From Bombella pluederhausensis (lineage in GTDB: Bacteria; Pseudomonadota; Alphaproteobacteria; Acetobacterales; Acetobacteraceae): a stretch of DNA of 64,000 nt. Both the position numbers and the translations under genes were made by a program. Each line of letters opens with the position of its first letter. The stretch's first letter is position 1. Below are positions 13,268 through 61,189 of this stretch, piece by piece. The notes below the pieces were generated by a model that searched no databases, was not told the origin of the DNA, and saw nothing but the letters and a program-made list of their open reading frames with translations. The DNA lies in assembly GCF_026385525.1 (NCBI RefSeq), contig NZ_JANIDY010000005.1, positions 1-64,000 on the forward strand. Direction: 5' to 3'.

Positions 13268-13414
13268 GAATTCTCTCTCCAGAATCTCTGGTGCTCAAGG
13301 CAGGACAGACCGGGGACTGACCCTATGAAAAAGGAGGCGCACCGCAAGTCACAGCACGCCTCCCCTCAGCGGTGGGGAGAGGCCCCCACCAGACTTCCCG
13401 TTTTCAGGGCGTGA

Positions 13415-13987: not shown

Positions 13988-14115
13988 GAAAACCTCCTCA
14001 TTCACTATCAGAGTTCTAGACTTCCGCAGGACTTGCGAATGCCCCTTTTAGGGAGCAACCTGACCTTTGGAATGTCAAGCATGTTTACCTTCTAGCCTCC
14101 GCTGACAAAAGCGTC

Positions 14116-14157
14116 TAATTGAGGGTTGTTATCAGTATAATTAAGAATCATTATCAG
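14116..14157. promoter_or_regulatory. Candidate OxyR operator: imperfect direct repeat with 22-bp period
   Basis: Two 20-bp half-elements start at 14116 and 14138 and match at 15 of 20 positions. Both begin TAATT and end TTATCAG. A 22-bp period puts equivalent contacts on the same DNA face two turns apart, as expected for a tetrameric LysR-type regulator. The site lies in the ahpC/oxyR divergent region. Assignment to OxyR is inferred from position and spacing, not from an exact consensus match. Confidence 0.55.
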
Positions 14158-14220
14158 CATCTATACGATTTCAGTCTTTTTCCCTTGGCCCTTTCTCCAA
14201 CTCAGCTTATTGGTACTATC

Positions 14221-37227: not shown

Positions 37228-37233
37228 GCGCCG

Positions 37234-38409: not shown

Positions 38410-38508
38410 AGACAGGCGGCTCTCTAAGGAATTGGACACAGAAGAATAAAACTACAGACAAATAATCCTGCCTGCATCATATCTCGCCATGAAAAAACGA
38501 GTGGGAGC

Positions 38509-44663: not shown

Positions 44664-47168
44664 TTGCCCGCAAACCAATTCCGGGGTTACATCGACGCTA
44701 TAGACGGCCAGAGCGGTATCGTTCGCGGCTGGGCCGTCAACCTGCGCGACCCCGTCCAACCTGTTCTGCTACACATCCTGATGGACGGTCAGGAGGTCAT
44801 GCAGGCTGTCTGCGATCTTCCTCGTGAGGACGTTCGCGATGTTCTGCTCGCTCCCAGCGAGAAACTCGGCTTTCAGTTCACTCTGCCAGTTGAAGCCTGT
44901 GATGGCCAGCCTCATGATCTGTCCATTCGTTTTGAAGACCGCAGTGCCCTCCTCTTTCCGGATTCCGAAAACCCAGAAGTTGGCCACGAAGTTGTCACCT
45001 TCACACGGAAACCATTCACCGAATACATGAGCAACGTGGATGGTCTGCATGAAGGCCTCCTGCGTGGCTGGATCGTCTCCCGCGACTTCCCCGGTGCGGG
45101 CTGGACTGGCAATGTCATCATCTCCGTCAAGATTGATGGTGTGTCCCTCGGCACCATCCGCGCCGACTGCTACCGCGGCGATGTTGTTGAAGCCCTGAAA
45201 TGCGAACCGAACTGCGGCTTTGAGTTCCCTATTCCGCATCGCTACCATGACGGGATTCCGCACAACATCACCGTTATGACCATGCCGGATGAAGTGCCCC
45301 TCTCTGGCAGCCCGATGGTGACCTCCCTGGTCGATGACCAGCTGACGGCAAAGCTGGTTCAGATTGAAAATACCATTGCTGGCCTGCACCAGCAGCTGAC
45401 AGCTCTACGGAGCAGCACACGCTCGCTGATTCCCCGCAAGCCGCTCAATCTGCAGCACTACGACAAATGGGCAAAAAGCTACTACAACCTCCTGCGTGAA
45501 CAGACCGCTCTCCAGCGGGAAGCTCGCCCCCTGAAGAAAAGCCCGCTTGTCTCCGTTCTCTGCCCGACATGGCGCCCCGATGAAGGTGACTTCCGTGCGG
45601 CTGTCGAGTCCGTCCTGAACCAGACTTACCAGAACTGGGAGCTGATTCTTGTTGACGATGGTAGCCAGTGCAAAAAGACAACGGCTCTCATCGAAGAATA
45701 CAGCAAGAAGGACAAACGCGTCCGCGCCTTTGCTCTGAAGAAAAACCAGGGTATTGCTGGTGCCACCAACGAGGCGATCAAGAACGCCAAGGGCGACTAC
45801 ATCGCCTTCTTCGATCATGACGATCTGCTCGTTGATGTCGCTCTGGAGCGCATGGTCCGTGCCGCCCTGGATACCGGCGCCAAGCTGCTCTACTGCGATG
45901 AAGACAAGGTGGACGCTGCGGGTCACTTCCTCGAGCCCAACCTGAAACCAGCCTATGACTATCGTTATCTGCTGGGCTGCAACTATATCTGCCATCTGAC
46001 CTTCATGGATGCAGACGTGGTACGCAAGGTTGGTCCGCTGGAGAGCCGCTATAACGGTGCCCAGGATCATGACTTCCTGCTTCGTGCTACGGAAATCATC
46101 CCCCGTGAGGCCATCCACCACGTGCCGGAGATCCTGTATCACTGGCGCAAAACGCCTAACTCCACAGCCAGCAACATTGGCAATAAGGGCTATGCTGTTA
46201 AGGCTGGCGTTGACTGCGTTACGGACCATCTGAAGCGCCGTAAGATCAAAGCCAACGTTTCCTCCGTGGAACGCCTGAGCCTCTATGCAGTGAGCTGGCC
46301 ATTCCGCCGTCAGCCAACTCTCACAGTTATCATTCCTTTCCGCGACCAGCTGGAAATGACCCGGAACTGTGTCGAGTCCCTGCTGGAAACCCAGAAATAC
46401 CGCAAGTTTGATATCATTCTCGTGGATAACTTCTCGGTTCAGAAGGACACACTGGCTTGGCTGGAAGACGTCAAGAAGAACAAGCAGGTCAATGTTCTGC
46501 GCGTGGAAGAACCGTTCAACTACGCTCGCCTGAACAATCTGGCTGCCAAGGAAAGCAAGAGCGATCTGCTGCTTTTCCTGAACAATGACGTCATCATCAC
46601 CCAGCCAGACTTCCTGGAAAAGATGGTCCAGGAGATGCTGGCATCCCCGGATGTTGGCGCTGTTGGTGCCCGTCTTCTCTATCCTAACGGCACCATCCAG
46701 CACGCTGGTGTCGCCGTGGGACCGGAAGTCATTGGTGTGCATGTCCATCGTCTCCAGTCTGCAACGGACTTCGGCTATATTGGCCGTCTCCGCCTCAACC
46801 ACGAGGTGACCGCCGTAACAGGGGCTGCCCTGATGGTGTCTCATGCTGTCTTTGATGAAGTTGGCTGCTTTGATGAAGTCGGTCTGGCCGTGGCCTACAA
46901 CGATGTTGACCTCTGCCTGAAGATCCGTGACCACGGACACCGGATCATCTTCTGTGCCGAGGCCGAAGCGATCCATCATGAAAGCTACTCTCGCGGCAGT
47001 GACAACCGCCCTGAGCAGGAAGCCCGCTTCTTCCACGAAAGACAGGTCATGCTGGAGCGTTGGAAAGACAATCCGCTCTTTAAAAAAGATCCAACGTACC
47101 CACATTACTTCAAGCAGGATCTGCGGACCTTCTTTGACCTCAACGGTCCTGAAGACCTATGGTCCTAA
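44664..47168 (+). CDS. Glycosyltransferase with duplicated N-terminal module and two GT2 domains
   Basis: 834 aa. Two N-terminal beta-rich modules of about 80 residues resemble each other (GIVRGWAV...LMDGQ...DGQPHDLSIR at about 18-89 and GLLRGWIV...VKIDG...DGIPHNITV at about 131-204). They are followed by a short coiled-coil-like stretch (about 224-250) and two GT-A glycosyltransferase family 2 domains: one at about 295-500 with DDG (331-333) and FDHDD (383-387), the second at about 552-790 with VDN (587-589) and LNNDV (639-643). No signal peptide or membrane helix, so cytoplasmic. Likely builds a surface glycan or glycosylates a protein; acceptor unknown. The start is TTG 44664, decided by AGGAGG 5-8 nt upstream. 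Confidence 0.88.
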   Translation: MPANQFRGYIDAIDGQSGIVRGWAVNLRDPVQPVLLHILMDGQEVMQAVCDLPREDVRDVLLAPSEKLGFQFTLPVEACDGQPHDLSIRFEDRSALLFPDSENPEVGHEVVTFTRKPFTEYMSNVDGLHEGLLRGWIVSRDFPGAGWTGNVIISVKIDGVSLGTIRADCYRGDVVEALKCEPNCGFEFPIPHRYHDGIPHNITVMTMPDEVPLSGSPMVTSLVDDQLTAKLVQIENTIAGLHQQLTALRSSTRSLIPRKPLNLQHYDKWAKSYYNLLREQTALQREARPLKKSPLVSVLCPTWRPDEGDFRAAVESVLNQTYQNWELILVDDGSQCKKTTALIEEYSKKDKRVRAFALKKNQGIAGATNEAIKNAKGDYIAFFDHDDLLVDVALERMVRAALDTGAKLLYCDEDKVDAAGHFLEPNLKPAYDYRYLLGCNYICHLTFMDADVVRKVGPLESRYNGAQDHDFLLRATEIIPREAIHHVPEILYHWRKTPNSTASNIGNKGYAVKAGVDCVTDHLKRRKIKANVSSVERLSLYAVSWPFRRQPTLTVIIPFRDQLEMTRNCVESLLETQKYRKFDIILVDNFSVQKDTLAWLEDVKKNKQVNVLRVEEPFNYARLNNLAAKESKSDLLLFLNNDVIITQPDFLEKMVQEMLASPDVGAVGARLLYPNGTIQHAGVAVGPEVIGVHVHRLQSATDFGYIGRLRLNHEVTAVTGAALMVSHAVFDEVGCFDEVGLAVAYNDVDLCLKIRDHGHRIIFCAEAEAIHHESYSRGSDNRPEQEARFFHERQVMLERWKDNPLFKKDPTYPHYFKQDLRTFFDLNGPEDLWS

Positions 47169-47256: not shown

Positions 47257-47766
47257 ATGATGAGCAAGATCAATCATTACCCCACAAGCAACAACACGCC
47301 AGACAACACGAAGGCCGTGTCCATCGAGACCCTGAATGCCCGTCTGGCTGATCTGATCGATCTGGCACTGGTGACCAAGCAGGCTCACTGGAATCTCAAA
47401 GGCGTCAACTTCATTGGTGTGCATGAGATGCTGGATGGCTTCCGCGGCGGTCTGGATGGCTTTGTGGACACAGCAGCTGAGCGTGCTGTCCAGCTGGGTG
47501 GCGTAGCTCTCGGTACCGTGCAGAATGTGCATCGTCACACAAACTGCGCTCCGTACCCGACAGACATCTACACCGTCATGGATCACATCAAGGCTCTGGC
47601 CGAGCGCTATGGCGTTGTTGCCAACAAGATCCGTGAAGCCATCAAGGTGACGGCAGAAGCTGGCGATGAAGATACATCCGACATCTTCACCGAAATCTCC
47701 CGCGGACTGGACAAGAACCTTTGGTTCCTTGAGGCTCATCTGCAGGCTGAAGCTGGTCCTCGCTAA
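47257..47766 (+). CDS. dps: DNA-binding ferritin-like protein Dps
   Basis: 169 aa, four-helix ferritin fold. The intersubunit ferroxidase residues are visible in KQAHWNLKG (His44), HEMLD (His56, Asp60) and DTAAERAVQLGG (Glu75). Stores iron and protects DNA against peroxide. A polar N-terminal tail (about 1-20) may bind DNA. AAGGAG lies upstream of tandem ATGs at 47257 and 47260. Its own unit, followed by terminators. Confidence 0.96.
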   Translation: MMSKINHYPTSNNTPDNTKAVSIETLNARLADLIDLALVTKQAHWNLKGVNFIGVHEMLDGFRGGLDGFVDTAAERAVQLGGVALGTVQNVHRHTNCAPYPTDIYTVMDHIKALAERYGVVANKIREAIKVTAEAGDEDTSDIFTEISRGLDKNLWFLEAHLQAEAGPR

Positions 47767-47919: not shown

Positions 47920-48477
47920 TTAGAGAGAAAGGGCCAGATGGAGCCGAGCAAAATAGAACGGGTCATCCCGTAGAACATCCCGCACCAGCCGGCCATCTTC
48001 CAGCACATCATTACTACCGGGACCGACTTCGGCTGGCATGTAATCAGGCCGCCAGTCCTTTTCTTCCTGCTCAGCTGGGGCTGGGACAGAAGCGGCTTCT
48101 TCTGGCTGTTCTGGCTGTTCTGGCTGTTCTGGCTGTTCTGGCTGTTCTGGCTGCGAAACAGCCGGTGGGGGTTCGACCTCCTGCCTGACAAGCTTCAGGC
48201 TCTCCATGATAGCCTGAAAATCTTCTTCCAACAGACGCCCCGGTAGGCTGCCCCGCTCACGCTGAACAATCCACTCGCGTGTCATATCCCGCAGAGCGTT
48301 CTGTGCAGCCCGATCATGCCCCTCCTGTGAAGCCAGCCAGCTACGCTGCGCAGCTTCCGCCAACTGCTCGCACTCTACCGCCCCCACCCTCTGCGGCGCA
48401 GAAGAAGCGGATTTCTTGACAATCCATCCCGCTACCAGCGCCTGTAAAGCGGCACTGTCCATCTCTGGCATCATCAT
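47920..48477 (-). CDS. Hypothetical protein with Pro-Glu-Gln repeats
   Basis: 185 aa, no recognised family. The N-terminal half is helical (about 1-105), then a low-complexity PEQ tract (about six copies), then an acidic, proline-rich segment and a short conserved-looking tail (VRDVLRDDPFYFARLHLAL). No signal peptide. It starts at ATG 48477, overlapping the stop of the upstream glycosyltransferase (ATGA), with GGGAG upstream. Last gene of the secretion/glycosylation operon. The tract is encoded by a 9-bp tandem repeat that could vary in length. Confidence 0.7.
   Translation of the reverse strand: MMMPEMDSAALQALVAGWIVKKSASSAPQRVGAVECEQLAEAAQRSWLASQEGHDRAAQNALRDMTREWIVQRERGSLPGRLLEEDFQAIMESLKLVRQEVEPPPAVSQPEQPEQPEQPEQPEQPEEAASVPAPAEQEEKDWRPDYMPAEVGPGSNDVLEDGRLVRDVLRDDPFYFARLHLALSL
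48102..48153. repeat. 9-bp tandem repeat inside the Pro-Glu-Gln protein gene
   Basis: The unit CTGGCTGTT is repeated five times in full (48102-48146), followed by a partial copy to 48153. The copies are identical at the DNA level, which suggests recent slippage. The unit is three codons, so changes in copy number keep the frame and alter only the length of the tract. Confidence 0.95.
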
Positions 48478-49706
48478 ATCGTCTCCCGGCCTGTCATCCT
48501 GCATACCAGCGCCTCATACTGGGCCAAATACTGCTTCATATCCAATAGTTTTTCCGCACGCTGACGCACATTATGGCTCAGCCTTTCTGCAAGACTCCGG
48601 GTCTCCAAGAGATGCAGAATGGCCTCTCCAATCGCTTCGGGCTGAAGGAAAGGTACCATCAGCGCCGTTTTCTCATGCTCAAGATATTCCCTTACCGGCG
48701 CCGTATCACTGGCTACAAGCGGGCAGCCTATCGCCATGGCCTCCCTCAAAGACCATGACAGCACAAACGGATAGGTCAGATAAATATGAGCATCTGAACG
48801 CTGCAGAACACGAATCATCTGCTCGCGTTCCAGCCAACCAACGAAGTGAATACGGGAAAGATCCAGCTTCCCTTCCAGCTCCTTCAGTATGGTCTCCCGC
48901 CAGCTGCCACCACCAGCAGGAGGCAGACCATAACTGACATCCTCCCGCCCCATCAGAATCACCTGACAGTCCGGCCGTGCCTTCATCAAAGCCGGCAGGG
49001 CACGCATCACACTATGAAACCCTCTATAGGGCTCCAGATTACGCGCCGCATATGTCACCAGCTTCTCATAAGGAGCAATGGTAATATTACCCAACCGGAA
49101 AGGCTTCTTCCTCAATTGGGGATTGGGCCGATATAGCTCCAGATCAACCCCTTCATCCAAAAGGGATAATTTGTCCCATGCCCAACGGGGATATGTGTCC
49201 CGCTGAAAACAGGTCGGAGTCTGCCCCTGTCCCGGACCAGCCAAAGCCTGAAGGTTGACGGCATTTTTACACCGGACCAGCAGTTCCGGCTGTTCCGGCA
49301 TGGGAAACTCAGGATCGAAACCTATGTCTCGTCCTTCCACACCGTAATAGAACTCGAAATATCCCAATAGCGGCACACCGGGAAACACTGAATCAAGATT
49401 CAGCAACTCTCCCCAACCGTGATGGCCGATAATGATGTCCGGGACAAACCCCAAATCCTTTAAAGAGCGGGCTACAGCGGCAATAGCCTCTGCCCGCTGT
49501 ATGGCGTGATCGAACTCTCTAACAAAAGGATGCACAGCATCCCCGTTCATCTCCGGCGGGCGGTACAGAACCCGGCGCACACCGGGAATATCCGGCCCCT
49601 TGCCCGCAGTAAGAAAGACGACATCATGCTCCGGTTTACGGGCAAGATGTGCCACCATATGGGCATACTGTGCCGGGAAGCTTTGATGAACAAAAAGAAA
49701 ACGCAC
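48474..49706 (-). CDS. Glycosyltransferase family 4 protein
   Basis: 410 aa GT-B enzyme. The N-terminal domain begins MRFLFVHQSFPAQYAH, and the C-terminal domain carries LEPYRGFHSVMRALPAL, then RIHFVGWL and the nucleotide-sugar region SWSLREAMAIGCPLVASD with its E. No signal peptide; cytoplasmic. The GTG start at 49706 has GGGGGGAA upstream. It lies 26 nt after the ChW-like gene and overlaps the next gene by 4 nt. Sugar donor and acceptor unknown. Confidence 0.88.
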   Translation of the reverse strand: MRFLFVHQSFPAQYAHMVAHLARKPEHDVVFLTAGKGPDIPGVRRVLYRPPEMNGDAVHPFVREFDHAIQRAEAIAAVARSLKDLGFVPDIIIGHHGWGELLNLDSVFPGVPLLGYFEFYYGVEGRDIGFDPEFPMPEQPELLVRCKNAVNLQALAGPGQGQTPTCFQRDTYPRWAWDKLSLLDEGVDLELYRPNPQLRKKPFRLGNITIAPYEKLVTYAARNLEPYRGFHSVMRALPALMKARPDCQVILMGREDVSYGLPPAGGGSWRETILKELEGKLDLSRIHFVGWLEREQMIRVLQRSDAHIYLTYPFVLSWSLREAMAIGCPLVASDTAPVREYLEHEKTALMVPFLQPEAIGEAILHLLETRSLAERLSHNVRQRAEKLLDMKQYLAQYEALVCRMTGRETI

Positions 49707-49732
49707 CGTTCCCCCCGGCCAGTTTCTGGCTG

Positions 49733-50674
49733 TTACTCCTTGTCAGAACGGGGAGAAGCGTCTTTCTGACCACTTCCCTGCGCCGACTTGCGCCCAGCCT
49801 TGGCGGAATCCTTATCGTCTTTCTTTTCACCACCATCCAGAGGAACAAACTCCAACCGGAATCCTTCCAGAGGAGCAAGGCTTTCTGCCTGAAGGGCTTC
49901 TTCACCCCCTTCAACCGGCCCGACTTCTGTTCCATCGGTAAAGCAGGCTGTCAGCCGAACGGTCCATTTATGGGACACATCCCCCTTCAGCCGGACACGC
50001 AGCCCCAGAATGGGCAGGGACATACCACGGGACCCGCAGAACTGCCCCCCTTCGGCCCAAGGTGACAGCCACCCACGCCCCAGAACAGCCTGATATTCAA
50101 CATCTTTTGCTTGGATGGCCCCTTCAGGCTGAATAGAGAAGCCCTCAATCCAGCGCTTACTGCCACCCTGACCGATCCACTCACCCGCGACCACGCCCAC
50201 ATCACCACGCCGCTGGATATGCGCAATGATTTCACGGCCTGTATCGCTCATGGCACCGGAAACGGAAATACGGCTATCAGAAGACTTGGCCTTGGCAGCA
50301 TCACTACCAGCCTTCGGCTCAACCGGAACACCACCAATCAGACGGATCACCTGCAGGCGGGGCGCTTCACCTGTCTGATTATCCTGATAGGTTGTCACCA
50401 TCACACCAGCAGGGCCACGCCGCACCCGCACCAGTGCTGCACTATTTGCGGCGCCCATCCACCCATCAGCCATGAAAGTGACGACCTCCACAGCATCCTC
50501 AGGCACACCCGGAGCACGGGAAATACGCACACCTGGCAGTCCGCTCGGGCCTGCCTCCTTCTGACCAGGTGCATGGAACACACAGAAAACACCGGCATCC
50601 AGCGTCATCACGTGAGCACCCGCTTTCAGGTCCACAATACGATGACGGGGCTGTTCCTTATCTGTTTCTGGCAT
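49733..50674 (-). CDS. Protein with ChW-like repeats, unknown function
   Basis: 313 aa. The segment at about 150-232 resembles clostridial hydrophobic 'ChW' repeats: a weak first unit (AHIQRRGDVGVVAGEWIG) and a stronger second (VEYQAVLGRGWLSPWAEGGQ, then LPILGLRVRLKG). ChW units are known mostly from secreted surface proteins of Gram-positives. Here no signal peptide is visible and the ends are polar (C-terminal Lys/Asp/Ser-rich tail). ATG 50674 has GGAGAG upstream and is preferred to 50725. It lies between two glycosyltransferases in the secretion operon. It could be a lectin-like partner or a cargo; both are guesses. Confidence 0.65.
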   Translation of the reverse strand: MPETDKEQPRHRIVDLKAGAHVMTLDAGVFCVFHAPGQKEAGPSGLPGVRISRAPGVPEDAVEVVTFMADGWMGAANSAALVRVRRGPAGVMVTTYQDNQTGEAPRLQVIRLIGGVPVEPKAGSDAAKAKSSDSRISVSGAMSDTGREIIAHIQRRGDVGVVAGEWIGQGGSKRWIEGFSIQPEGAIQAKDVEYQAVLGRGWLSPWAEGGQFCGSRGMSLPILGLRVRLKGDVSHKWTVRLTACFTDGTEVGPVEGGEEALQAESLAPLEGFRLEFVPLDGGEKKDDKDSAKAGRKSAQGSGQKDASPRSDKE

Positions 50675-50752
50675 GTTCTCTCCAGCTGCCTGTAAGTCTT
50701 GCAGAAGCGCAAGGCGCTTATGCACAAATTTTCTTAGAATGTCTCTGTAATC

Positions 50753-53700
50753 TTAGCTGATTTTAATGCGTTCTGCAAAATATCCCTTCTTCTTCACTTT
50801 TCTGTTTTCATCTCGACATCCCATTTCTAGGAAAATCTTAACAAGACGGTCTACTGGCAGCCCTAACGGCACAACACGCCCCCAATCTGGACCTGCCTGC
50901 CGGATACGCTCGGCAGATGCCCCAATATCAAACCCGACAACAGCTAGTTTAGCCCTCCACAACCACCCCAAAGTATAGCACCATGTTTCTGGAGCAATTG
51001 ATGGTACAAATCCAATATCAGCACCAGACATCTCAAGAAGTGACAAGACATCATCATCTTCATAAGAACCCGTTACTTCAATTCCTGCTTTCAGGCAGGT
51101 TTCATCATCATGAGTTCCACCGATCAGAATCAGGCGTAATGGAAGATTATTCTTCTGAACATGCTGGGCCAGCGCCAGCAGAACATCATACCCTTTCCAC
51201 CGGCTAATTCCCCCCAAAACGACTATACGCAGCGGTCTTTCCTCTGTCGGGGGGCATCCACTCCTCACGGGGGGGGAACCAGCCCTTATCTGCCGGTCAT
51301 CTTCCAACGGCTCGATCTCAATGGGCCCCACATCCGGCACGTGCCGCTCTAGCCGATGAGCGGCATCTCTGGACGGCGCCACAACCCGGCGAGCCTGTTT
51401 CAGCTCCTCTGCCGAACGAGACAGATAAGCGGGCAGGTCCATCCCCTCATCCACCTGTAATTTTCCTCTGGAAAGGCAGGCCCTACACCCTGCCATGGAA
51501 GGCTCCCCACAATAGCGGCCATGCTCATCCAACAAAGCAATACGTGGGCAGAACCAGACATGATCGTGCACGTAGATGTCATAAGGGACATTTAGCTGCC
51601 GGTGCAGAGTCCGCAGGCCCCTCTCATGCCCCAGCATATGATGCCATATCACATGCTGTACGCCCATTTCCCTTAGAAAACTCAGTAAAACGGGCTGTTC
51701 CTCTGGGAGAACGAACATAAGATTCGGCACATCCAGCGCCACAACAAGGCTGACAACCCGGCACCCTGTTTCCGTAGGCTCCAGAATGATTGGCAGAATG
51801 CCCGCCCGGGCCAGCCTGGCCGCCTGCTCCCGCACAGCGCGCGCCACCCCACCGCCACCCCGGTGCTGAAACGATACAACCGCCCCGGAAAACTGCATCC
51901 GATACTGCCGAAGGCGCCGCCAATCCAGCTGACGCCGGAAATCCTTCAACGGGTCTCCATCCTTCCAACGCTGGATGGCTGCATCATAACCGGGATACAG
52001 ACGGTTCAGTATATCCAGATTACGCTGGAGCAGCGGGGCGGCACCTGTCCCAAAAGACCCATGAGCGTGATGCAGAACATACACATCCACAGCCGCCAAA
52101 TGGGTAAAGCCTGCTTCACTGGCACGGAGGCAAAAATCATTTTCCTCCCCATAGCCCTGAGCAAAATACTCTCCCCTCAACAGCCCCACGGCAGCCAGAC
52201 AGGATGCTGATATCCCCATGCAAAACCCGTTCGCCGTTGGCAATGCCACAACAGGCCGTTCGGACTGCGCCTGAAGCTGGAACATTCTGTCCAGCTCCGC
52301 CACATCAGCCGGGTCTGGAGCAGGATTGTCACGGTCCCGCTTCGGATAGGATGTCAGCCCACCTGCATTAGAGAAAGGCGTGACCGTTCCGGCACCTTCA
52401 TGCCGTATCCAGCGCAGGAGACGCTCCACCCAGCTACCAGATACCAGCGTGTCACTATTCAGCAGAATGACATCCCACCCGGCAGGCACGTATGTCAGGC
52501 CAGTATTGATACTGGCCACAAACCCACGATTGATTTCATGCCGATGCAGGCAGCCCCGTCCACACCGGGCCAGACCAGCCAGATAATCCTGCAAGCCTTT
52601 TTCAGGGGACGCATCATCTACAATAATAAGTCTGCATGATGCAGGAACTGTCTCAAGAACACGTTCCAGACACGCCCGCACCATCATCTCATCCCGACAG
52701 ACAGGTATGATGATGGCACAGCCTGCCTCATCATCGTGGCAGGCTACTTTTTTAATCGTGGAAGATTTAGCCCCTTTTCGAGGCATTCGGCACCCCCGCA
52801 CCGTCCAACCCTTCCGAACACTCCCTGCTGGGCGAGGGTGCTGCATCAGGGTCATTAAAACCGGATCAAGCGGAGCCCCCAACAGAAGGCGCCCATATTG
52901 GTCATAAAAACTGGTCGATTTACCGGCAAGCTGAGGCCAATCTTCATAGGGCAGGGAAAAACCACGAGGCCGCTGCAAGAGAGCTGAACTGCTAAAATCC
53001 TCCGCCAGCCCCTCAACCTGAAAGGCCGTTTCATGACCTTCAATCCACATGGAAGGCAGAAAATCCGGCTCTCCCGGATACCATAGCCAGCCCCGGACAC
53101 CCCTTTCCTCCGCCATCACCAGAGACTGGCAGCGTATGACGGCCTGTATGTCAATCGGGCTCCCCAGCACAGGCTGCCCAGCGCAGCTTATGGTAAGAGT
53201 CTGCCCCTGCCACCACGGCCCTGTATCCTCCGAAATCATCAGGGACAGGTCATGAACACCTGCGGGCACCGTCCCCACCGTCCTGCCATCCAGACCCACC
53301 ACAGCATTTCCAGTGACACGAAGACGCAGGGTTCCTTCATTGGAGAGTACAGCCCAACCCGGCAACCCGGCAGGAAAAGACAAGCTATCCGCCAACGTAT
53401 GATGGGCCGCTGTCATGCTGTTACGAGACAGAACCTGCCCCATAATGCGCCTTCCGGCTTCAGGCTCACCGCAGCGCAAATAGCCCCCCGCCAGAGCCAG
53501 CCCGGCCTCCCGCATTCCATAACGGGCCCATAATGCTTCAAGCCGGGGCAGCGCTTGCCGGACCGCACCGCTCTCCAGAAGAATCATGGCACAAGTGAAG
53601 CTGATATTATCGTCCCGGCCCGACAGACGTTCCGCACGCTGCAACCAGAACAGGGCATCGCTCCGTTCACCCTGCTTCAAAGAGGCCAGCCCTCGCTCAA

Positions 53701-53803
53701 AGGTCTGCTGGATCTCCTGCATATGCCGGATTTTCCAACGAACCTCATCCTGAGGCCGATAAAAACGACCATATCCCGGAATGAAGCTGGCCTGCCCTCT
53801 CAC
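50753..53803 (-). CDS. Large glycosyltransferase: TPR-like, beta-module, GT2 and GT4 domains
   Basis: 1016 aa. A helical TPR-like N-terminus (about 28-135), a beta-rich middle with RGVRGWLWYPGEPDFLPSMW (234-253), a GT2 domain (about 362-600: VDDAS at 395-399, LLNSDT at 447-452, YGEENDFCLR at 551-560), and a GT4 domain (about 640-1000, with GISRWKGYDVL and PETWCYTLGWLWRAK). No membrane helix. Two catalytic folds suggest that it adds two different sugars. The GTG start at 53803 overlaps the Sel1 gene stop (GTGA); a later ATG at 53722 lacks a good Shine-Dalgarno. Confidence 0.85.
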   Translation of the reverse strand: MRGQASFIPGYGRFYRPQDEVRWKIRHMQEIQQTFERGLASLKQGERSDALFWLQRAERLSGRDDNISFTCAMILLESGAVRQALPRLEALWARYGMREAGLALAGGYLRCGEPEAGRRIMGQVLSRNSMTAAHHTLADSLSFPAGLPGWAVLSNEGTLRLRVTGNAVVGLDGRTVGTVPAGVHDLSLMISEDTGPWWQGQTLTISCAGQPVLGSPIDIQAVIRCQSLVMAEERGVRGWLWYPGEPDFLPSMWIEGHETAFQVEGLAEDFSSSALLQRPRGFSLPYEDWPQLAGKSTSFYDQYGRLLLGAPLDPVLMTLMQHPRPAGSVRKGWTVRGCRMPRKGAKSSTIKKVACHDDEAGCAIIIPVCRDEMMVRACLERVLETVPASCRLIIVDDASPEKGLQDYLAGLARCGRGCLHRHEINRGFVASINTGLTYVPAGWDVILLNSDTLVSGSWVERLLRWIRHEGAGTVTPFSNAGGLTSYPKRDRDNPAPDPADVAELDRMFQLQAQSERPVVALPTANGFCMGISASCLAAVGLLRGEYFAQGYGEENDFCLRASEAGFTHLAAVDVYVLHHAHGSFGTGAAPLLQRNLDILNRLYPGYDAAIQRWKDGDPLKDFRRQLDWRRLRQYRMQFSGAVVSFQHRGGGGVARAVREQAARLARAGILPIILEPTETGCRVVSLVVALDVPNLMFVLPEEQPVLLSFLREMGVQHVIWHHMLGHERGLRTLHRQLNVPYDIYVHDHVWFCPRIALLDEHGRYCGEPSMAGCRACLSRGKLQVDEGMDLPAYLSRSAEELKQARRVVAPSRDAAHRLERHVPDVGPIEIEPLEDDRQIRAGSPPVRSGCPPTEERPLRIVVLGGISRWKGYDVLLALAQHVQKNNLPLRLILIGGTHDDETCLKAGIEVTGSYEDDDVLSLLEMSGADIGFVPSIAPETWCYTLGWLWRAKLAVVGFDIGASAERIRQAGPDWGRVVPLGLPVDRLVKIFLEMGCRDENRKVKKKGYFAERIKIS

Positions 53804-55614
53804 GGGTCAGTCTTATCTTCTACCGTATCGACCGATGATTCTTCATGTTCAGAGGGCCGGTCTAAACTATCCAGAAGATGCTGTGCCTGCTGGATACCCT
53901 GACGGACAGCCTGCTGAAGCCAGTAACGAGCCTGCTCCCGGTCTTCCTCGCCGCCCAGACCTTTCATCAGATAACGCCCCAGCATCATCTGACCCAGACC
54001 ATGCCCACGCTGCGCCGCTTCCTCAAAACACTCACGAGCACGAGGCACATCGGCCGGGACATCGTGACCACCGCCATACATGGCGCCCAGCGAGAAATAA
54101 GCCTCTGGCAAGCCAGCGTCCGCCGCCTGATGGTAAAGCTCCAGCGCACGGGCATGATCCTTCACGCCCCCAACCTGCCCCGTTACCAGCACCTGAGCCA
54201 CGCTTGCACAGGCCTCCGGCATACCCTGACGGGCCGCCTTATCCATCCATATCAGGCCGCTCTGCTGGTCCATGGCCACACCACGGCCCTCAAACAACAT
54301 ACGACCATACCAATACTGGGCGTTCACAACACCTTCTCGTGCCAGTCCCAACCAGTAGAAGGCCTTAGCCTCGTCCGAACTGCCACCAACACCCTGCGCC
54401 AGACAGACGCCCAGATTGAACGCTCCCAGCAGATCACCCCCTTCAGCCTGCACCCTAAGGCGTTGCTGGAGGTTCTTCTGCTCCTCCTCAGGATGAGCCA
54501 CACCCGCCAGCACCAGATTGCCAAGGTCTGCATCAGCGTGACGGTCGCCCAGCGCAGCCGCGTGGCTGAACCAATAGGCTGCCTTCTTTTCATCCCGTAT
54601 GACGCCCGTGCCCGTCAGATACAGCACGGCCAGAACACGGGCTGCGGGCGTATGCTGCTGCTCGGCAGCAAACTCATACCAGCGGGCTGCCTCCGCTGGA
54701 CGCCGAAGGAAATCCTCCCCTCGAATATACAAATCGCCCAGCAGAGCCGCCGCTTCAGCATCGCCACCATAGGCGGCCCGCCGCAACCAGCTTTCTGCCT
54801 GCACGACATTGGTTTCAACCCCCACCCCTTTCAGGAGCATCAACCCATAACGGGCCTGCGCTGAAGGAATGTCCTGATCGGCGGCCATACGGTAACAGCG
54901 CGCCGCCTTGCCGGCATCCCGCTCCTGCCCGCAGGCACCATGCTCATAAATCCAGCCCATGGCCGCACTGGCCAGACCGATTCCTCCTTCAGCCGCCCGC
55001 TGAAGATGAGCCATGGCATGGGCTCTCTGGTCATCATCGGTCGCTTCATCCAGCAGGATAAGCCCCAGCCCCAGAGCCGCCTGTAACGAGCCGCCCCGTA
55101 CAGCTTCACCATACCAATGCCGGGCCGCTTCACGGTCCTGAATCTCATCAGGCCCATGATTGAAAATATGCCCCAGCAGAGCCTGCGCCTCGACATGCCC
55201 CGCCTCGGCGCCTTTCTCTGCCCAGAAGCGGGCCTGAGAGAAGTCCGGCTGATAATCTTCCGTTTCTTCACGGTCGTAACGCCCGTAAAGACCATCCCCA
55301 CCCGAAGCAGGCAAAGAAGGATCAAACCCTTTGGGAACACCCATGGCAAACAGGGTCGCCAGCGTAAAACACGCCTCACTGATCCCCGCCTGCGCTGCCT
55401 GATATGTCCAACGGGCACCATCTTCCAATGAGGAGGGCGTGCCCTGACCAGACAGATAGCACTGCCCGACCCTGTAAGCGGCCTCTGGCACGCCGGAACG
55501 TGCCATCTTTGCCAGCAGGGAGAAAGCCTGCGGTGCCTTCCCCTCATCCTGAAGCCGCTTCGCACGATTCAGCTTGCGGGTTACAGAATCGAAAAGCGCA
55601 AACCTGCGTACCAT
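53800..55614 (-). CDS. Sel1-repeat protein
   Basis: 604 aa made almost wholly of Sel1-like repeats (about twelve, each around 36 residues), for example AAYRVGQCYLSGQGT, AQARYGLMLLKGVGV, AFNLGVCLAQGVGG and AYFSLGAMYGGGHDV. These form an alpha-solenoid used as a protein-interaction scaffold. No signal peptide, so probably cytoplasmic. AGGAGG lies about 10 nt before the ATG. It sits between the HlyD adaptor and the large glycosyltransferase, so it may dock glycosyltransferases or cargo to the transporter; this is inference. Confidence 0.9.
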   Translation of the reverse strand: MVRRFALFDSVTRKLNRAKRLQDEGKAPQAFSLLAKMARSGVPEAAYRVGQCYLSGQGTPSSLEDGARWTYQAAQAGISEACFTLATLFAMGVPKGFDPSLPASGGDGLYGRYDREETEDYQPDFSQARFWAEKGAEAGHVEAQALLGHIFNHGPDEIQDREAARHWYGEAVRGGSLQAALGLGLILLDEATDDDQRAHAMAHLQRAAEGGIGLASAAMGWIYEHGACGQERDAGKAARCYRMAADQDIPSAQARYGLMLLKGVGVETNVVQAESWLRRAAYGGDAEAAALLGDLYIRGEDFLRRPAEAARWYEFAAEQQHTPAARVLAVLYLTGTGVIRDEKKAAYWFSHAAALGDRHADADLGNLVLAGVAHPEEEQKNLQQRLRVQAEGGDLLGAFNLGVCLAQGVGGSSDEAKAFYWLGLAREGVVNAQYWYGRMLFEGRGVAMDQQSGLIWMDKAARQGMPEACASVAQVLVTGQVGGVKDHARALELYHQAADAGLPEAYFSLGAMYGGGHDVPADVPRARECFEEAAQRGHGLGQMMLGRYLMKGLGGEEDREQARYWLQQAVRQGIQQAQHLLDSLDRPSEHEESSVDTVEDKTDP

Positions 55615-55631
55615 GGAACTGGCCCCCTCCT

Positions 55632-57134
55632 TTAAGAAGGCTCTCTCATACCATCCGTTGCCATCGGTACGGCACGGCTGAACAGATAGTACAGAATGGT
55701 TCTCTTACCGACATCAATATCAGATGTCACAGGCATACCCGCACTGGGATGGAAGAAAGAAGGCTGTCCATGCAGGGTATATTTATCAATCTTCAATCGA
55801 ACACGATAGAAAATGGCGGCCCCGCTACCCTGCATGAGAGCAGAGGGATCAATCCCGGCACGAATATTACCCTCCACCATTTCGGGCGGCAGGAACGTAT
55901 CAGCACTGATGAGACGGACTGTCCCTTCTGCACCGCCATATTGTGGATAAGGGAAGCTGGCAAATTTGATGACCGCATGATGGCCCTGCCGCACATAAGC
56001 AGCATCCTGCGGACTCATGATGGCTTCCACCTCCAGACCAGTATTGGTCGGCTCCAATGTCATTACCCGTAGAGACGGGGCTACCATCGAACCGACCGAG
56101 ATAGGAGCGATTGTCAGAACAATGCCATCTTCAGGAGCACGCAGATCAATATATTTCTGCTCCACACGCCCTTTACGATAGTTGCTGCGCAACTGATCCA
56201 ATCGGCGCTCCCCGGCTACGAGCTGGCTGTAAATACCCGTCTTCCATGACTGGATATAACTCTCCCTCATGGCTTTGAGGGCTGTGAGACGGTTCTGCGT
56301 TCCACCAGCTGTCTGCTGGGCAGAAATCAGGGCCCGCTCGGTATCCATCACGGCATCCTGCGCCCCAAGGGTAGACAGACGTGACCCAACGGCTTCCTTC
56401 TGCTCACGCTCACGCATGTCCAGCACAGCCTGTGTAACCTTCAGCTTGCTGGCATACATGGCGGCATTGCCTCTAGCCGCCTGAAGATCATTCTCCATGC
56501 CCGCAATGCGGCGGTCAAAATCCTGTATATGAGCCTGATAATCCGCCTGCATCTGCAGGAAGACCTGAGCCTGCTGGATAGAGGCAGGGACATTCATGTC
56601 CGCATGATATTCCAGCCCGGCAGCCTGTGCCTTCAGACGGGCAACTTCCGCCTGCATGGACAGCATCTGCGAAGACAGATTTTCCATGTCCACATCACTC
56701 AGTGACGGATCAAGTCTGGCCAGCACCTGCCCTTTGTGAACGTACTCACCCACCGCAACATTGATAGAGCGGACACGCCCTTCCGACACAGGCTGAACAA
56801 CCACAATTGGAGCAGTCGAAATGATCCGCCCCGTAACGGTTACGACCTTATTGACAGGGAACAGCCCCATCGCAGCAACAGATGCCAGCACCAGAGACCC
56901 TACGAGCCATACGATATAACGGGCTGATGCCGTCATGGGCATGTTGACCATACCCAGCGTAGGGGAATGGAACTCCAACAGAGCAACAGGCATGTCATCA
57001 GGGGCAAACGGATCATCGGCCCGGCGAGGCCCCCGATTATTATCCCCCTCCTCCATGGCAGGCGCAGACCCTTTAACCTGCGGCTCTTTCTCCTGCGCAG
57101 GGCCGGTGCTGATTGGCTCTTTCTCGCTCATCAT
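55632..57134 (-). CDS. HlyD-family type I secretion adaptor
   Basis: 500 aa. A cytoplasmic N-terminal tail rich in Pro/Glu, one membrane helix (about 70-95), a lipoyl half-motif (VVVQPVSEGRVRSINVAVGEYVHKG), a long coiled-coil hairpin (about 150-320), the second lipoyl half (LRAPEDGIVLTIAPISVGS) and a C-terminal beta-barrel with the family end GMPVTSDIDVGKRTILYYLFS. Links the ABC transporter to an outer-membrane channel. The ATG overlaps the transporter stop (TGATG) and has AGGAGGG upstream. No TolC homologue is adjacent. Confidence 0.94.
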   Translation of the reverse strand: MMSEKEPISTGPAQEKEPQVKGSAPAMEEGDNNRGPRRADDPFAPDDMPVALLEFHSPTLGMVNMPMTASARYIVWLVGSLVLASVAAMGLFPVNKVVTVTGRIISTAPIVVVQPVSEGRVRSINVAVGEYVHKGQVLARLDPSLSDVDMENLSSQMLSMQAEVARLKAQAAGLEYHADMNVPASIQQAQVFLQMQADYQAHIQDFDRRIAGMENDLQAARGNAAMYASKLKVTQAVLDMREREQKEAVGSRLSTLGAQDAVMDTERALISAQQTAGGTQNRLTALKAMRESYIQSWKTGIYSQLVAGERRLDQLRSNYRKGRVEQKYIDLRAPEDGIVLTIAPISVGSMVAPSLRVMTLEPTNTGLEVEAIMSPQDAAYVRQGHHAVIKFASFPYPQYGGAEGTVRLISADTFLPPEMVEGNIRAGIDPSALMQGSGAAIFYRVRLKIDKYTLHGQPSFFHPSAGMPVTSDIDVGKRTILYYLFSRAVPMATDGMREPS

Positions 57135-59425
57135 TCCTGCCCTCCTGCTGGACGATCAGACGGTTCTGAACCGCCTGCCTCAAGATGACGGTTCTGCTGC
57201 AGCCACAAGGTCCGATACACATCGCAGCGCTCAAGCAGAACTTCATGCGGTGCGATATCAATGGCACGCCCTTTATCCATCACGGCAATCTGGTCACAAT
57301 CCACCAGAGAGGACAGACGGTGCGACACGATCACCATCGTACGCCCCTTGGCCAGATTCTTCAGGTTAGCGTTCACCAAAGCCTCAGATTCTGGATCAAG
57401 AGCCGATGTTGCCTCATCGAGAATCATGAGTTTGGGATCAGAAATGACGGCACGGGCAATCGCCAAACGCTGCCTCTGCCCGCCGGAAATATTGGTCGAG
57501 CCTTCTTCAATCCATGTTTCATAACCAGCCGGCATCCGTTCGATGAATTCCTCGGCCCCGGCCAGACGAGCGGCCCGAACAACATCATCCAGAGTCAATC
57601 CGGGGCGCCCGGCAGTAATATTGTCATGAATGGTACCACGGAACAGGAAGTTATCCTGAAGCACCACACCGAAAGACCGGCGCAAATAATGCAGGTTGAT
57701 CTCTCGCAGATCGACCCCATCAAGACGCAGATACCCCTGATACTCACGGCTAACGCCCTGAAGAAGACGGGTAATGGTTGATTTACCCGACCCTGAACGC
57801 CCGACAAGGCCCAGCATGGTCCCCGCAGGCACCTCAAAATTCACATCCGAAAGGGCACGGTTCGATCCGCCCGGATAAGTGAAGTTGATGTTTGTGAAGC
57901 TCAACGCCCCCTTGATGGGCGGGCGCATACCATGTGTCAGAGCATAGGTTTCCGTGGGCTGGTTGAGCACAGCCCCTGCCTCCCCCAGAGACACAGTCAC
58001 TTCATTAAGGGACTCCATAATTCGAGCCAAACTGACCAGCGGTGAGGCAACACGACCACCCAACATCATGAAGGCCATGAGCGCACCGCCCTGCATGGTA
58101 TTGGAATCCACAAGCACCAGATAGCCACCCACCAGAATAATACCCCGGTTGATGAACATATTGATCGGCTGGACCATCGTGCTGACCAGATTCGCCAGAC
58201 GCTGAGAGGCCAGACGCCAGCGAATTACAATGGCCGTACGCTCATCCCACTCCGCACGCCGTGTCTGCTCCAACGCCAGCGTTTTGACTGTGCGGATACC
58301 AGCTACTGTTTCGTAAAGTGTAGCGCCTCGCTGCATCTCGGCACGGATCATCTTCCCCGCCACCCGGCTAACCACAGGCAACATGATGACCACGATCAAC
58401 CCGATCGCTGCAGCTGCCAAAAGGGTCAACCAAGCCAGGGTCGAGCTCATGTAAAACAGCACGGGCATAACAACCAGGAGCATGAACATATCCAACAGGG
58501 TGTTCAGCACCTGCCCGGTCATGAAGTCACGCACCTTGAAGATGGAGTTAAACCGTCCCAGCACCTCACCAGCCTGCTGGCGCTCATAAAACTCCAGTGG
58601 CAGGGCCAGAAGACGGTTGAACGCATGCAGAGAAATACGGGCATCAAGACGGGTCGTGACCACCAGCGTCAATTCCTGCCGGGCATAGGTCAACAACACT
58701 TCATAAAGGCTGAGAATAACCACAAAACCCGTCAGGGAGATCAGCGTGGCCATGGAGCGGTAATTGATGACACGATCCACCACCTGCATGACGATCAGAG
58801 CCGGGAAAAGCCCCAGAACACTAAGCACCATGGAGGAGAAAAGAATGTCCTTCAGGCCCTTCTTTTCTCGGAGAACCATCCGGGCAAACCAGTGAAAATC
58901 AAAATTGGCATCAGCCTCTGATTCATCACTGCGCCGCTTGATGAGGACAGCATCGCCCGTCCAGAGCTGCATCAGTCGCAGCTCATCAATCGGGACAGGC
59001 GGCTCCCCTTCACCCTTAAGCGGGTCTCTCAGCCAGACGATGCCTTTTTCCGGGTCCGTACGGACCATCAGGCCGGCAGAACCATCACGGAACAACAGCA
59101 CGATAGGCGGCGTGAAGCCCAGCTTGACAAGATAGCGCCAGCGCAAGCGCATCCCTTTGGCGACAGCACCATATTCCCGCAACCAGCGAACAAGGGTCGC
59201 GGGAGAGGGTGAATCCTCGCCGGGTTCTGCTGCAAAGTCCCGCAGGTCCAGCTCAATCCCATGGTACCGGGCTGCCGCCATGACAGCACGCAGACGGATA
59301 TAGACAGGGCTCACACGCTGAGGCTGCTGCCCTGCACTGTTACGCTCCGCCCCATGGGCGTTGGACTCACGGCCCCCAGCATTCCGCCCGGAAGACTGGT
59401 CGCCAGTTGGAGGCTGGTTCTCCAC
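57131..59425 (-). CDS. Type I secretion ABC transporter with degenerate C39-like domain
   Basis: 764 aa. The N-terminal C39-like domain (about 40-165) keeps ARYHGIELDLRDF and the LRDP strand but has no Cys at the peptidase position (RAVMAAARYHG), so it should bind cargo rather than cleave it. Six membrane helices (about 195-470) are followed by the ATPase: Walker A GRSGSGKST (542-550), signature ISGGQRQR, Walker B LMILDEATSALD. Homologous to RTX/adhesin exporters. GTG 59425 has AAGGA upstream. First gene of the operon. No RTX-type substrate is encoded in this window. Confidence 0.94.
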   Translation of the reverse strand: MENQPPTGDQSSGRNAGGRESNAHGAERNSAGQQPQRVSPVYIRLRAVMAAARYHGIELDLRDFAAEPGEDSPSPATLVRWLREYGAVAKGMRLRWRYLVKLGFTPPIVLLFRDGSAGLMVRTDPEKGIVWLRDPLKGEGEPPVPIDELRLMQLWTGDAVLIKRRSDESEADANFDFHWFARMVLREKKGLKDILFSSMVLSVLGLFPALIVMQVVDRVINYRSMATLISLTGFVVILSLYEVLLTYARQELTLVVTTRLDARISLHAFNRLLALPLEFYERQQAGEVLGRFNSIFKVRDFMTGQVLNTLLDMFMLLVVMPVLFYMSSTLAWLTLLAAAAIGLIVVIMLPVVSRVAGKMIRAEMQRGATLYETVAGIRTVKTLALEQTRRAEWDERTAIVIRWRLASQRLANLVSTMVQPINMFINRGIILVGGYLVLVDSNTMQGGALMAFMMLGGRVASPLVSLARIMESLNEVTVSLGEAGAVLNQPTETYALTHGMRPPIKGALSFTNINFTYPGGSNRALSDVNFEVPAGTMLGLVGRSGSGKSTITRLLQGVSREYQGYLRLDGVDLREINLHYLRRSFGVVLQDNFLFRGTIHDNITAGRPGLTLDDVVRAARLAGAEEFIERMPAGYETWIEEGSTNISGGQRQRLAIARAVISDPKLMILDEATSALDPESEALVNANLKNLAKGRTMVIVSHRLSSLVDCDQIAVMDKGRAIDIAPHEVLLERCDVYRTLWLQQNRHLEAGGSEPSDRPAGGQE

Positions 59426-59701
59426 AGAATATCCTTATCTTGTCTCGTCACCCATATCAGGGCGCTTCAGAATTCACGCCCTGTTCTACCGCATCATGCA
59501 GGAATCTATAAGCAGTTATGTGGCACAGCAAGGGCGCAGGCACCGTTGCTCCTTCTTTTTCCCACCGCCTGCAGGCTCTGGCCTATCGGCCTGTTCCGGT
59601 TTTTCCCCTTCCATTCCTCCAGCCATCTCCCCATCTGGAAAAAACGATCCGGCCTTTTGAAAGGCCCATACCCTCATGTCAGATACCGGAAACTGCCCTT
59701 C

Positions 59702-61189
59702 ATGCCTGTTCCCCCTCATTATGCCACGGCCCTGCCTGAGTTCTTCCACCGAAAAGTTACACCTACTGCACCACCGGCCCCCCAACTCATTGCCCTGAAT
59801 GAATCTCTGGCCCGTCAGCTTGGCCTGGATGTGGACTGGCTTCAGTCCCCGGCTGGGCTGGCCTTTCTCTCCCGTGGCGCCCTGCCTGAGCATAAAAACA
59901 ACCCACCCCATGGACCTGTCGCAACAGCCTATGCCGGGCACCAATTCGGCCATTTCGTGCCCTCATTAGGGGATGGGCGGGCCATTCTCATAGCAGACTG
60001 CCAGCATGAAGACGGCTCACTCATGGAGCTCCAGATAAAAGGAGCTGGTCTGACCCCCTTTTCCCGTAATGGCGATGGTCGAAACACGTTAGGGCCAGCT
60101 CTGCGGGAATATCTTGTCAGTGAGGCGATGCATGCCCTGTCCATCCCCACCACCAGAGCATTGGCCGTACTCACCACGGGTGAGATGGTGGAACGCAGCG
60201 ATGGTCCCGTTCCCGGAGCCCTGCTTGTGCGGGCAGCCCACAGTCATATCAGGGTCGGGAGCTTTCAATATGCGGCAGCTCATGGAGGGCTGGACCATGT
60301 AAGGCAGCTTGCCGATCTTGCCATCCAGCGCCTTTTCCCCGATATTCCTGCCGATGAGCCGGAACGCTACCTGATATTCCTGCAACAGGTCATCGAACGG
60401 CAGGCCCGACTTGTGGCCCGCTGGATGGAAGTTGGCTTCATCCATGGCGTGATGAATACGGACAACTGCGCCATCTCTGGCGACACGCTGGATTATGGTC
60501 CCTGCGCCTTCATGGATCAATTCGACCCGATGAAGCATTTCAGCTTCATCGACAAAGACGGTCGCTATGCCTATGGCCGCCAACCTGCCCTTGCCCTCTG
60601 GAATCTCAGCCGACTGGCAGAATGTCTCTTTCCACTCTTTGATGACGATGACGACAAAGCCATTGAGCAGGCACAGGAGGCCCTACATAGCTACGACCGT
60701 CTCTTTCATCACCACTGGTTAGCCGGCTTCCGCCGTAAGCTGGGATTGGAAGAACAGGACGAGCATGACATCCGCCTTCTGGAGCATATTCTGGAGACCA
60801 TGCATACCGGGCAGGCCGATTTCACCAATGCCTTCCGCATGATGGGCTCACCCACTGTCGCCATAGAAGGCAATTACGCCCCCTTACGGGAGCTTTTCCC
60901 CGGGAACAGAGGCCATTTCGACCTGTGCCGGACAGAAATCCTGCACCGCCTGACGCTTGAAAAACGCTCGCCCAGCGCACGGCAACAAACCATGCAGGCC
61001 ACAAACCCACGCCTCATACCACGCAACCATCAGATAGAGGCCGTGCTGACTCAAGCCCTGCATGGCAACTATCAGCCCTTCCACGCCCTGCACGAAGCTC
61101 TAAAGACACCCTTTGCCGAGGCGGATGACGGGCTGGAGGCCGCTCCTCTCCCCCATGAAGAAGTCCGCCATACATTCTGCGGCACCTGA
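59702..61189 (+). CDS. selO: Protein adenylyltransferase SelO (YdiU family)
   Basis: 495 aa pseudokinase-fold enzyme that attaches AMP to proteins and helps oxidative-stress responses in E. coli. Typical segments are ATAYAGHQFGHF, QIKGAGLTPFSRNGDGRNTLGPALREYL, ARWMEVGFIHGVMNTDN and DYGPCAFMDQFDP. The frame is open to 59261, but ATG 59702 matches the usual length; its Shine-Dalgarno is poor, so the start could differ slightly. The C-terminus ends CGT, so the last Cys is not in the CxxC selenocysteine-like position of eukaryotic forms. Divergent from the secretion operon. Confidence 0.93.
   Translation: MPVPPHYATALPEFFHRKVTPTAPPAPQLIALNESLARQLGLDVDWLQSPAGLAFLSRGALPEHKNNPPHGPVATAYAGHQFGHFVPSLGDGRAILIADCQHEDGSLMELQIKGAGLTPFSRNGDGRNTLGPALREYLVSEAMHALSIPTTRALAVLTTGEMVERSDGPVPGALLVRAAHSHIRVGSFQYAAAHGGLDHVRQLADLAIQRLFPDIPADEPERYLIFLQQVIERQARLVARWMEVGFIHGVMNTDNCAISGDTLDYGPCAFMDQFDPMKHFSFIDKDGRYAYGRQPALALWNLSRLAECLFPLFDDDDDKAIEQAQEALHSYDRLFHHHWLAGFRRKLGLEEQDEHDIRLLEHILETMHTGQADFTNAFRMMGSPTVAIEGNYAPLRELFPGNRGHFDLCRTEILHRLTLEKRSPSARQQTMQATNPRLIPRNHQIEAVLTQALHGNYQPFHALHEALKTPFAEADDGLEAAPLPHEEVRHTFCGT

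Follow-up and report, generated by a model that had tools for sequence, protein, structure and literature searches.

A conserved operon linking type I secretion genes to glycosyltransferases in Acetobacteraceae, with a candidate RTX-like cargo

The 64,000-nucleotide window analyzed here (contig 10, positions 1 to 64000, of the 2.0-Mb, 14-contig genome of Bombella pluederhausensis) carries a minus-strand operon in which a type I secretion pair, an ATP-binding cassette (ABC) transporter and an HlyD-type adaptor, is followed by genes for a Sel1-repeat protein, a glycosyltransferase combining families GT2 and GT4 (GT2/GT4), a ChW-like protein, a GT4 glycosyltransferase, and a Pro-Glu-Gln (PEQ) linker protein. 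The first six of these genes keep their order in many relatives, and comparative evidence connects them to a family of RTX-like proteins whose probable member in this host is encoded on another contig. We think it rather likely that these components form a dedicated secretion-glycosylation system, in which the cargo would be glycosylated in the cytoplasm and then exported by the type I route.

Conservation of the operon in relatives

Loci were gathered with the GT2/GT4 protein (P0004) as the query, and the best 80 of 592 were compared; the set is hence centered on P0004, and the closest named relatives in it belong to the Acetobacteraceae (Gluconobacter and others). The ABC, HlyD, Sel1, GT2/GT4, ChW, and GT4 genes lie on one strand in the same order in 47 of the 80 loci, and contig-end fragments with the same gene order account for a further 12. 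One locus (L069) has the first four genes and not those for ChW and GT4, five hold rearranged sets (L056 from Azospirillum, L064 from Fulvimarina, L068 from a Caulobacteraceae bin, and L072 and L079 from Sphingobium), two (L063 and L075) encode a fused ChW domain with no type I secretion genes within the fetched stretch, and 13 have a GT2/GT4 relative alone, without the remaining core genes. That so many relatives (47/80) keep the six genes in this order indicates that the arrangement is more than chance and supports treating the type I secretion genes and the glycosyltransferases as one conserved unit, as an initial annotation of the window had proposed. Neither arrangement that this annotation held to speak against such a unit was found, namely separation of the glycosyltransferases from the ABC transporter in relatives, or pairing of the transporter with a different cargo and of the glycosyltransferases with a lipopolysaccharide cluster.

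The same annotation expected all seven families to be conserved together, which holds for the six core genes and fails for the PEQ protein. Judging from its distribution, this protein is not a core member: BLAST found homologs only in nine Gluconobacter or Neokomagataea loci and in genome G091, and they sit 3' of the GT4 gene (L003 to L007, L016, L023, L040, and L045; also L146). By eye, ORFs (open reading frames) that occupy this position in G091 and G051 retain a PEQ-type C-terminal DPxxFxRxHL motif, while the linker is variable.

The ChW-like protein is tied to the GT2/GT4 enzyme by gene fusion. It forms the C terminus of a single GT2/GT4 protein in 4 of the 80 loci (L063, L072, L075, and L079) and also in genome G450, suggesting that it is a partner of that enzyme. 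The family was found in 138 of 200 Acetobacteraceae genomes, and in a class-wide sample it was present in only 6 of 385, four of them within the host's family and two outside. Both outside matches lie inside long ORFs (1334 and 1197 residues), the longer of which (G480) is probably the same sequence as the L063 record.

The candidate cargo and its linkage to the operon

Five loci carry a glycine-rich ORF of 368 to 442 residues directly upstream of the GT2/GT4 gene, and four of these ORFs exceed the Pfam cutoff for RTX repeats (PF00353). A model of their full length (A1) gave zero matches in the host genome and was discarded as a probe for the host cargo, while a model (A2) of the 100 C-terminal residues had a single match in the host genome, at G000:C8:12253-12531. 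The corresponding gene (G000:C8:12241-13098) is on a contig other than the operon's and starts with TTG; its product of 285 residues contains 20% Ser plus Thr, no Cys, and 25 acidic and 11 basic residues. It lies between nadE-like and tetR-like genes, with a proC-like gene nearby (here and below, the neighbor names nadE, dsbB, proC, tetR, and metH were assigned by eye, except for a nadE-like gene in L027 that was assigned with Pfam). On the basis of these sequence comparisons, the missing cargo is probably this small, Cys-free, RTX-like protein encoded on contig C8. The initial annotation saw no cargo gene in the window. It had also predicted a large repeat protein without a signal peptide that tracks the cluster; the candidate does track it, through adjacency, co-occurrence, and joint decay, and has no evident signal peptide, but at 285 residues it is not large.

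Relatives encoded in other genomes share an N terminus of the form MAxVTVxGA and a C terminus of the form GGNTTIxLxDxxxITFxxVTxL, and their starts likewise show no evident signal peptide. Most of the relatives listed are about 285 to 520 residues long, with some paralogs near 800; several paralogs per genome occur in G106, G169, G211, G030, and G067, where some frames reach ∼800 residues. PF00353 also matches relatives in L152, L064, and L075. In the AlphaFold model of the L063 protein (predicted local distance difference test score [pLDDT], 78.8; residues 1 to 56 unreliable), short strands recur every 8 to 10 residues over a long run, a predicted beta-roll pattern. Ten PDB chains matched this model at E ≤ 0.001, with low query-normalized TM-scores of 0.17 to 0.34; they comprise RTX-bearing chains (CyaA RTX fragments and two extracellular lipases) and a Ca2+-dependent beta-helical antifreeze domain. 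A large repeat-rich cargo was also sought by eye among the ORFs of more than 1000 residues in the fetched cluster loci and none was recognized, with a 2047-residue ORF of L081 left aside; these ORFs were mostly GT2/GT4 genes, a methionine-synthase-like gene, and antisense frames. The L081 ORF (12017-18160; Methylovulum) lies directly downstream of a GT2/GT4 relative.

We tie this family to the operon because of its adjacency to GT2/GT4 genes, its co-occurrence with the ChW family, its GT4-GT4 neighbors, and the joint decay of both loci in one genome. Cargo relatives stand immediately upstream of the GT2/GT4 gene on the same strand in 7 of the 80 loci: L028 from an Acetobacteraceae bin, L063 from a Rhodospirillales bin, L056 and L075 from Azospirillum, L064 from Fulvimarina, and L072 and L079 from Sphingobium. 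Five of the seven seeded the cargo search, and L064 and L075 were found by it. L064, L072, and L079 are both cargo linked and in possession of all five other core genes, and in L144 and L145 the cargo gene adjoins the ChW gene. Among 12 cargo loci examined away from the cluster (L143, L150 to L159, and L179), a GT4-GT4 homolog adjoins the cargo gene in 7, a GT4-GT2 homolog lies near it in 6, and an RgpF-like homolog in 5 (assigned with Pfam on examples); the 5 loci without these glycosyltransferases are those of the host, one congener, and three others. Nine of the 12 fetched stretches include a nadE homolog. A nadE-like gene, which flanks the cargo in other genomes, also occurs in L027, where a GT2/GT4 relative without the other core genes (13059-15149) directly precedes an NAD synthase gene.

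Across the 200 Acetobacteraceae genomes A2 was too general (178 matched), and we therefore used a full-length cargo model (A5) built from rows of 11 genomes, all with ChW, at a threshold of E ≤ 1e-20. A5 matched 67 genomes, 64 of which have the ChW family. Ignoring ancestry in each case, this amounts to 64/138 genomes with ChW versus 3/62 without (P = 5.8e-10), to 53/127 versus 3/62 once the 11 row-supplying genomes are removed (P = 2.3e-8), and to 40/73 versus 1/29 when counted by genus (P = 3.7e-7). Of the three genomes with A5 and without ChW, two are drafts (one in 480 contigs, one 73% complete) and the third is G146; at E ≤ 1e-40, 45 genomes matched, 44 with ChW and G146 as the exception.

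G146 is a single-contig genome of 1.97 Mb with a congener (G067) that has an intact cluster and cargo. In G146 (loci L181 and L177) frameshifts or truncations affect the ABC, HlyD, Sel1, GT2/GT4, and GT4 genes and ChW is no longer matched, and at the cargo locus a cargo gene and its two neighbors, a GT4-GT4 homolog and an unassigned 463-residue ORF, are all broken. Genes of the system are broken or gone in 9 of 9 cases, versus 6 of 19 flanking ORFs of at least 150 residues, some of which are probably not genes (P = 8e-4); the flanking genes labeled nadE, dsbB, proC, and tetR are intact. Two separate loci were thus lost together, as a single pathway predicts. The decay of both involves frameshifts plus a deletion.

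Several observations weigh against assigning this cargo to the operon. The joint decay comes from a single genome, where part of the flanking ORFs are broken as well, and the fetched stretch of L028, with the cargo gene next to a GT2/GT4 relative, has none of the other core genes. The host protein has no Pfam match and its contig differs from that of the operon; PF00353 gave no match at E ≤ 0.01 in the host and 10 congeners, and this profile consequently fails as a cargo marker in the host genus (0/11 genomes). A5 did not match 74 of the 138 genomes with ChW at E ≤ 1e-20, and A2 is nearly equal in genomes with and without ChW (128/138 versus 50/62; P = 0.015; two of the A2-negative genomes among the 200, G216 and G217, were identified by deduction). 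Ten of the 138 lack even an A2 match (E ≤ 1e-3), and for seven of these ten A5 found nothing at E ≤ 5. All these P values ignore shared ancestry, and A5 was built from few lineages. The other three of the ten (G091, G051, and G137) each have a short, divergent ORF next to a gene that by eye resembles nadE, where the host cargo gene also lies, with A5 E-values of 2.4e-15, 1.5e-4, and 3.7e-4, respectively. In G160 and G206, A2-weak congeners of one A5-negative genome, A5 had no match at E ≤ 5.

Operon genes and neighboring features

All seven ORFs of the operon are open and form a single tight run (Table 1), as initially described. With the longest-ORF starts the spacings from the ABC gene onward are -4, 17, -4, 27, 26, and -31 nucleotides; with later starts for ChW (residue 18, where the homologs in its alignment begin) and PEQ (residue 10) they become -4, 17, -4, 78, 26, and -4, the values first noted. 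A terminator-like hairpin stands behind the run. A scan found 18 such sites against 11.0 in shuffled sequence, and the call therefore depends on hairpin strength and position.

Table 1. Features of the operon and its surroundings, in window coordinates
Feature	Coordinates	Strand	Basis
P0007, HlyB-type ABC transporter, C39-like N-terminal region without Cys	57131..59425	-	Pfam, NCBIfam, Cys positions
P0006, HlyD-type periplasmic adaptor	55632..57134	-	TIGR01843, 272 bits against a cutoff of 208.65 (above)
P0005, Sel1-repeat protein, 11 Sel1 stretches	53800..55614	-	Pfam
P0004, GT2 + GT4 glycosyltransferase, N terminus weakly TPR-like	50753..53803	-	Pfam
P0003, ChW-like protein, likely start residue 18 (50674)	49733..50725	-	Pfam; no signal peptide by eye
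P0002, GT4 glycosyltransferase (PF12000 + PF00534)	48474..49706	-	Pfam
P0001, PEQ linker protein, lineage-restricted accessory	47920..48504	-	Homolog distribution
Terminator-like stem-loop 3' of the PEQ gene	47895-47874	-	9-pair stem + T-run, consensus match only
P0011, tandem GT2-GT2 glycosyltransferase, convergent	44664..47168	+	Homologs beside cluster elsewhere
Ferritin-like gene	47257-47766	+	PF00210
SelO adenylyltransferase gene	59261-61189	+	
Outer-membrane efflux protein, AcrB-type pump, and third ORF (probable adaptor) in one run	32594-38439	-	PF02321 (efflux protein)

Pfam and NCBIfam bear out the families first given for the six core proteins, and neither assigned a family to the PEQ protein. 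P0007 has the transmembrane and nucleotide-binding domains of an ABC exporter (PF00664 and PF00005), and its match to TIGR01846 covers residues 47 to 745 with an E-value of 8e-158, yet is under the curated cutoff; solved HlyB chains are among its PDB matches. Its only Cys residues, at 710 and 734, leave the C39-like region without any, and no C39 peptidase appears among the Pfam matches. Exporters that recognize a C-terminal signal are expected to have a C39-like region free of Cys, and P0007 fits that type. P0005 is presumed to be cytoplasmic because inspection by eye revealed no signal peptide.

The PDB sequences nearest to P0002 and P0004 belong to distant glycosyltransferases and are uninformative on the acceptor. 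For P0004 the sole PDB sequence match at E ≤ 0.001 is GalT1 (5hea; E = 5e-4, GT2 region only), which we take to be an enzyme of a serine-rich repeat adhesin glycosylation pathway. P0003 contains a single ChW repeat, barely above its cutoff (23.0 bits versus 22), and a 31-member alignment (A3) shows a strongly conserved core, SPW...CGSR.M.LP. Its AlphaFold model is all-beta (pLDDT, 80.8; predicted TM-score, 0.51) and found no PDB fold match at E ≤ 0.001, nor did its sequence match the PDB at E ≤ 1.

The convergent GT2-GT2 gene, overlooked by the initial annotation, ends ∼750 nucleotides past the end of the operon, with the ferritin-like gene between them. Homologs of its product, P0011, adjoin the cluster in L003, L007, L023, L146, L147, and L148 and lie ∼7 kb from the GT2/GT4 gene in L028; it is a probable accessory of the locus. 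The SelO gene diverges from the ABC gene and is likewise upstream and divergent in Gluconobacter and Neokomagataea relatives. The PF02321 gene is the sole TolC-family gene of the window and looks dedicated to the efflux pump beside it; the host genome has 22 PF02321 domain matches.

Proposed pathway, alternatives, and known systems

We propose that a cargo gene away from the operon yields a small, Cys-free, RTX-like protein rich in Ser, Thr, Gly, and Asn that carries a type I signal at its C terminus. Before it folds, this protein would be glycosylated in the cytoplasm by the GT2/GT4 and GT4 enzymes, with the ChW-like protein as the partner of the GT2/GT4 enzyme, and the Sel1 protein may tether enzymes, cargo, and transporter, a scaffold role suggested by analogy only. 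Further glycosyltransferases encoded beside the cargo in many relatives would extend the glycan, as P0011 may do in the host, and the HlyB/HlyD pair would export the glycoprotein to the surface with a TolC-type protein. We infer the export of the cargo by this transporter, the attachment of sugars, the order of the steps, and the scaffolding from the genomic pattern described above. Whether this is an undescribed, family-wide pathway, with a cytoplasmic multi-enzyme glycosylation complex hard-wired to type I secretion and acting on one unfolded RTX-type surface protein, is in our judgment evenly balanced. We would lean neither for nor against the fuller composition of such a complex, in which a Sel1 scaffold, a ChW-like adaptor, the GT2/GT4 and GT4 enzymes, and cargo-borne glycosyltransferases build the glycan before exit. 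The initial interpretation, in which a large, cytoplasmically glycosylated surface protein is exported here with the Sel1 protein as scaffold, pointed in the right direction and erred on the size of the cargo and in counting PEQ among the core members.

The glycosyltransferases might instead build a surface polysaccharide, with the transporter exporting a protein that binds, anchors, or processes it, so that the genes share an envelope role. GT2/GT4 enzymes typically belong to polysaccharide pathways, the Rhizobium PrsDE exporter is found near exopolysaccharide genes, and alginate epimerases also contain RTX beta-rolls; many of the NCBIfam models that match P0002, all well short of their cutoffs, describe polysaccharide or glycolipid enzymes. 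Such a pathway should bring a flippase, polymerase, priming transferase, or polysaccharide exporter, and these were absent among the seven operon proteins and the scanned neighbors, the rest of the genome not having been searched. With the cargo-adjacent glycosyltransferases, the ChW fusion, and the joint decay all pointing to the cargo, we regard this explanation as unlikely, though it is the main rival.

It is improbable, in our view, that the transporter exports some other cargo while the RTX-like protein leaves by a different route and co-occurs through shared ancestry. Direct adjacency in 7 of 80 loci, the presence of ChW in 64 of 67 A5-positive genomes, and the joint decay in G146 argue otherwise, although the cargo gene and the cluster lie apart in the host and in the other 11 of the 12 loci examined, many Acetobacteraceae genomes encode several proteins with similar C termini, and some genomes with ChW have no recognizable cargo. 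Export by the ABC/HlyD pair of a glycolipid or oligosaccharide made by the glycosyltransferases, comparable to the cyanobacterial DevBCA or HepA exporters, seems very improbable. ABC-adaptor-TolC systems for glycolipids do exist, and NCBIfam lists a HepA-family model among its weaker matches to the ABC protein and a DevB model among its weaker matches to the adaptor, but the best families of the two are HlyB and HlyD of type I secretion, and some loci have a linked protein cargo. The dedicated secretion-glycosylation system remains our preferred explanation.

Such a system would resemble HlyB/HlyD/TolC in its ABC protein with a Cys-free C39-like region, its HlyD adaptor, its unlinked TolC-family proteins, and its probable cargo with a type I-like C terminus and beta-roll. 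It would differ in the fixed partners found here (the Sel1 protein, the ChW-like protein, and two glycosyltransferase genes) and in a cargo gene that is usually elsewhere. Serine-rich repeat adhesins of Gram-positive bacteria are served by Gtf enzymes and accessory Sec, and like the proposed system they devote several cytoplasmic glycosyltransferases to one exported Ser-rich protein; their export route, dependent on SecA2, is unrelated. If the proposal is right, the coupling of such glycosylation to type I secretion would be new, and it would extend across a family that includes vinegar, cellulose, and insect-associated bacteria; a set of orphan glycosyltransferases and the unassigned ChW-like family would acquire a function. 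Naming a concrete cargo makes its secretion and glycosylation directly testable, and the system may explain a surface coat for colonizing insects, flowers, or pellicles.

The initial annotation did not recognize the set as a described system, and we likewise found no description of it in the best-matching open-licence literature at the level of titles and the beginnings of abstracts. Within the part of it available, a type 1 secretion review mentions glycosylation twice, never of type I cargo (PMC8277102). Type V secretion offers a known case of cytoplasmic glycosylation devoted to a single exported protein: according to the available part of PMC8151025, HMW1A/HMW1B/HMW1C is a two-partner system with a cytoplasmic N-glycosyltransferase that acts before export, and there too an exporter and a dedicated cytoplasmic glycosyltransferase are encoded together. 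HMW1 uses type V secretion and one HMW1C-like enzyme, whereas the operon described here combines type I secretion with GT2/GT4, GT4, ChW, and Sel1 proteins; P0002 and P0004 match GT2/GT4-type families instead of HMW1C/GT41, and no two-partner exporter is among the matches listed (for P0007, the best 25 of 191 in NCBIfam). Cyanobacteria offer glycosylated RTX surface proteins, since SwmA appears glycosylated and oscillin highly glycosylated in the available part of PMC3034196, and swmA lies on an island with a beta-glycosyltransferase gene in that of PMC7522525. They belong to another phylum, no such operon is described in those parts, and the likeness is one of description only. On this comparison, the nearest precedents for the proposed system are the HMW1C systems and the cyanobacterial RTX glycoproteins.

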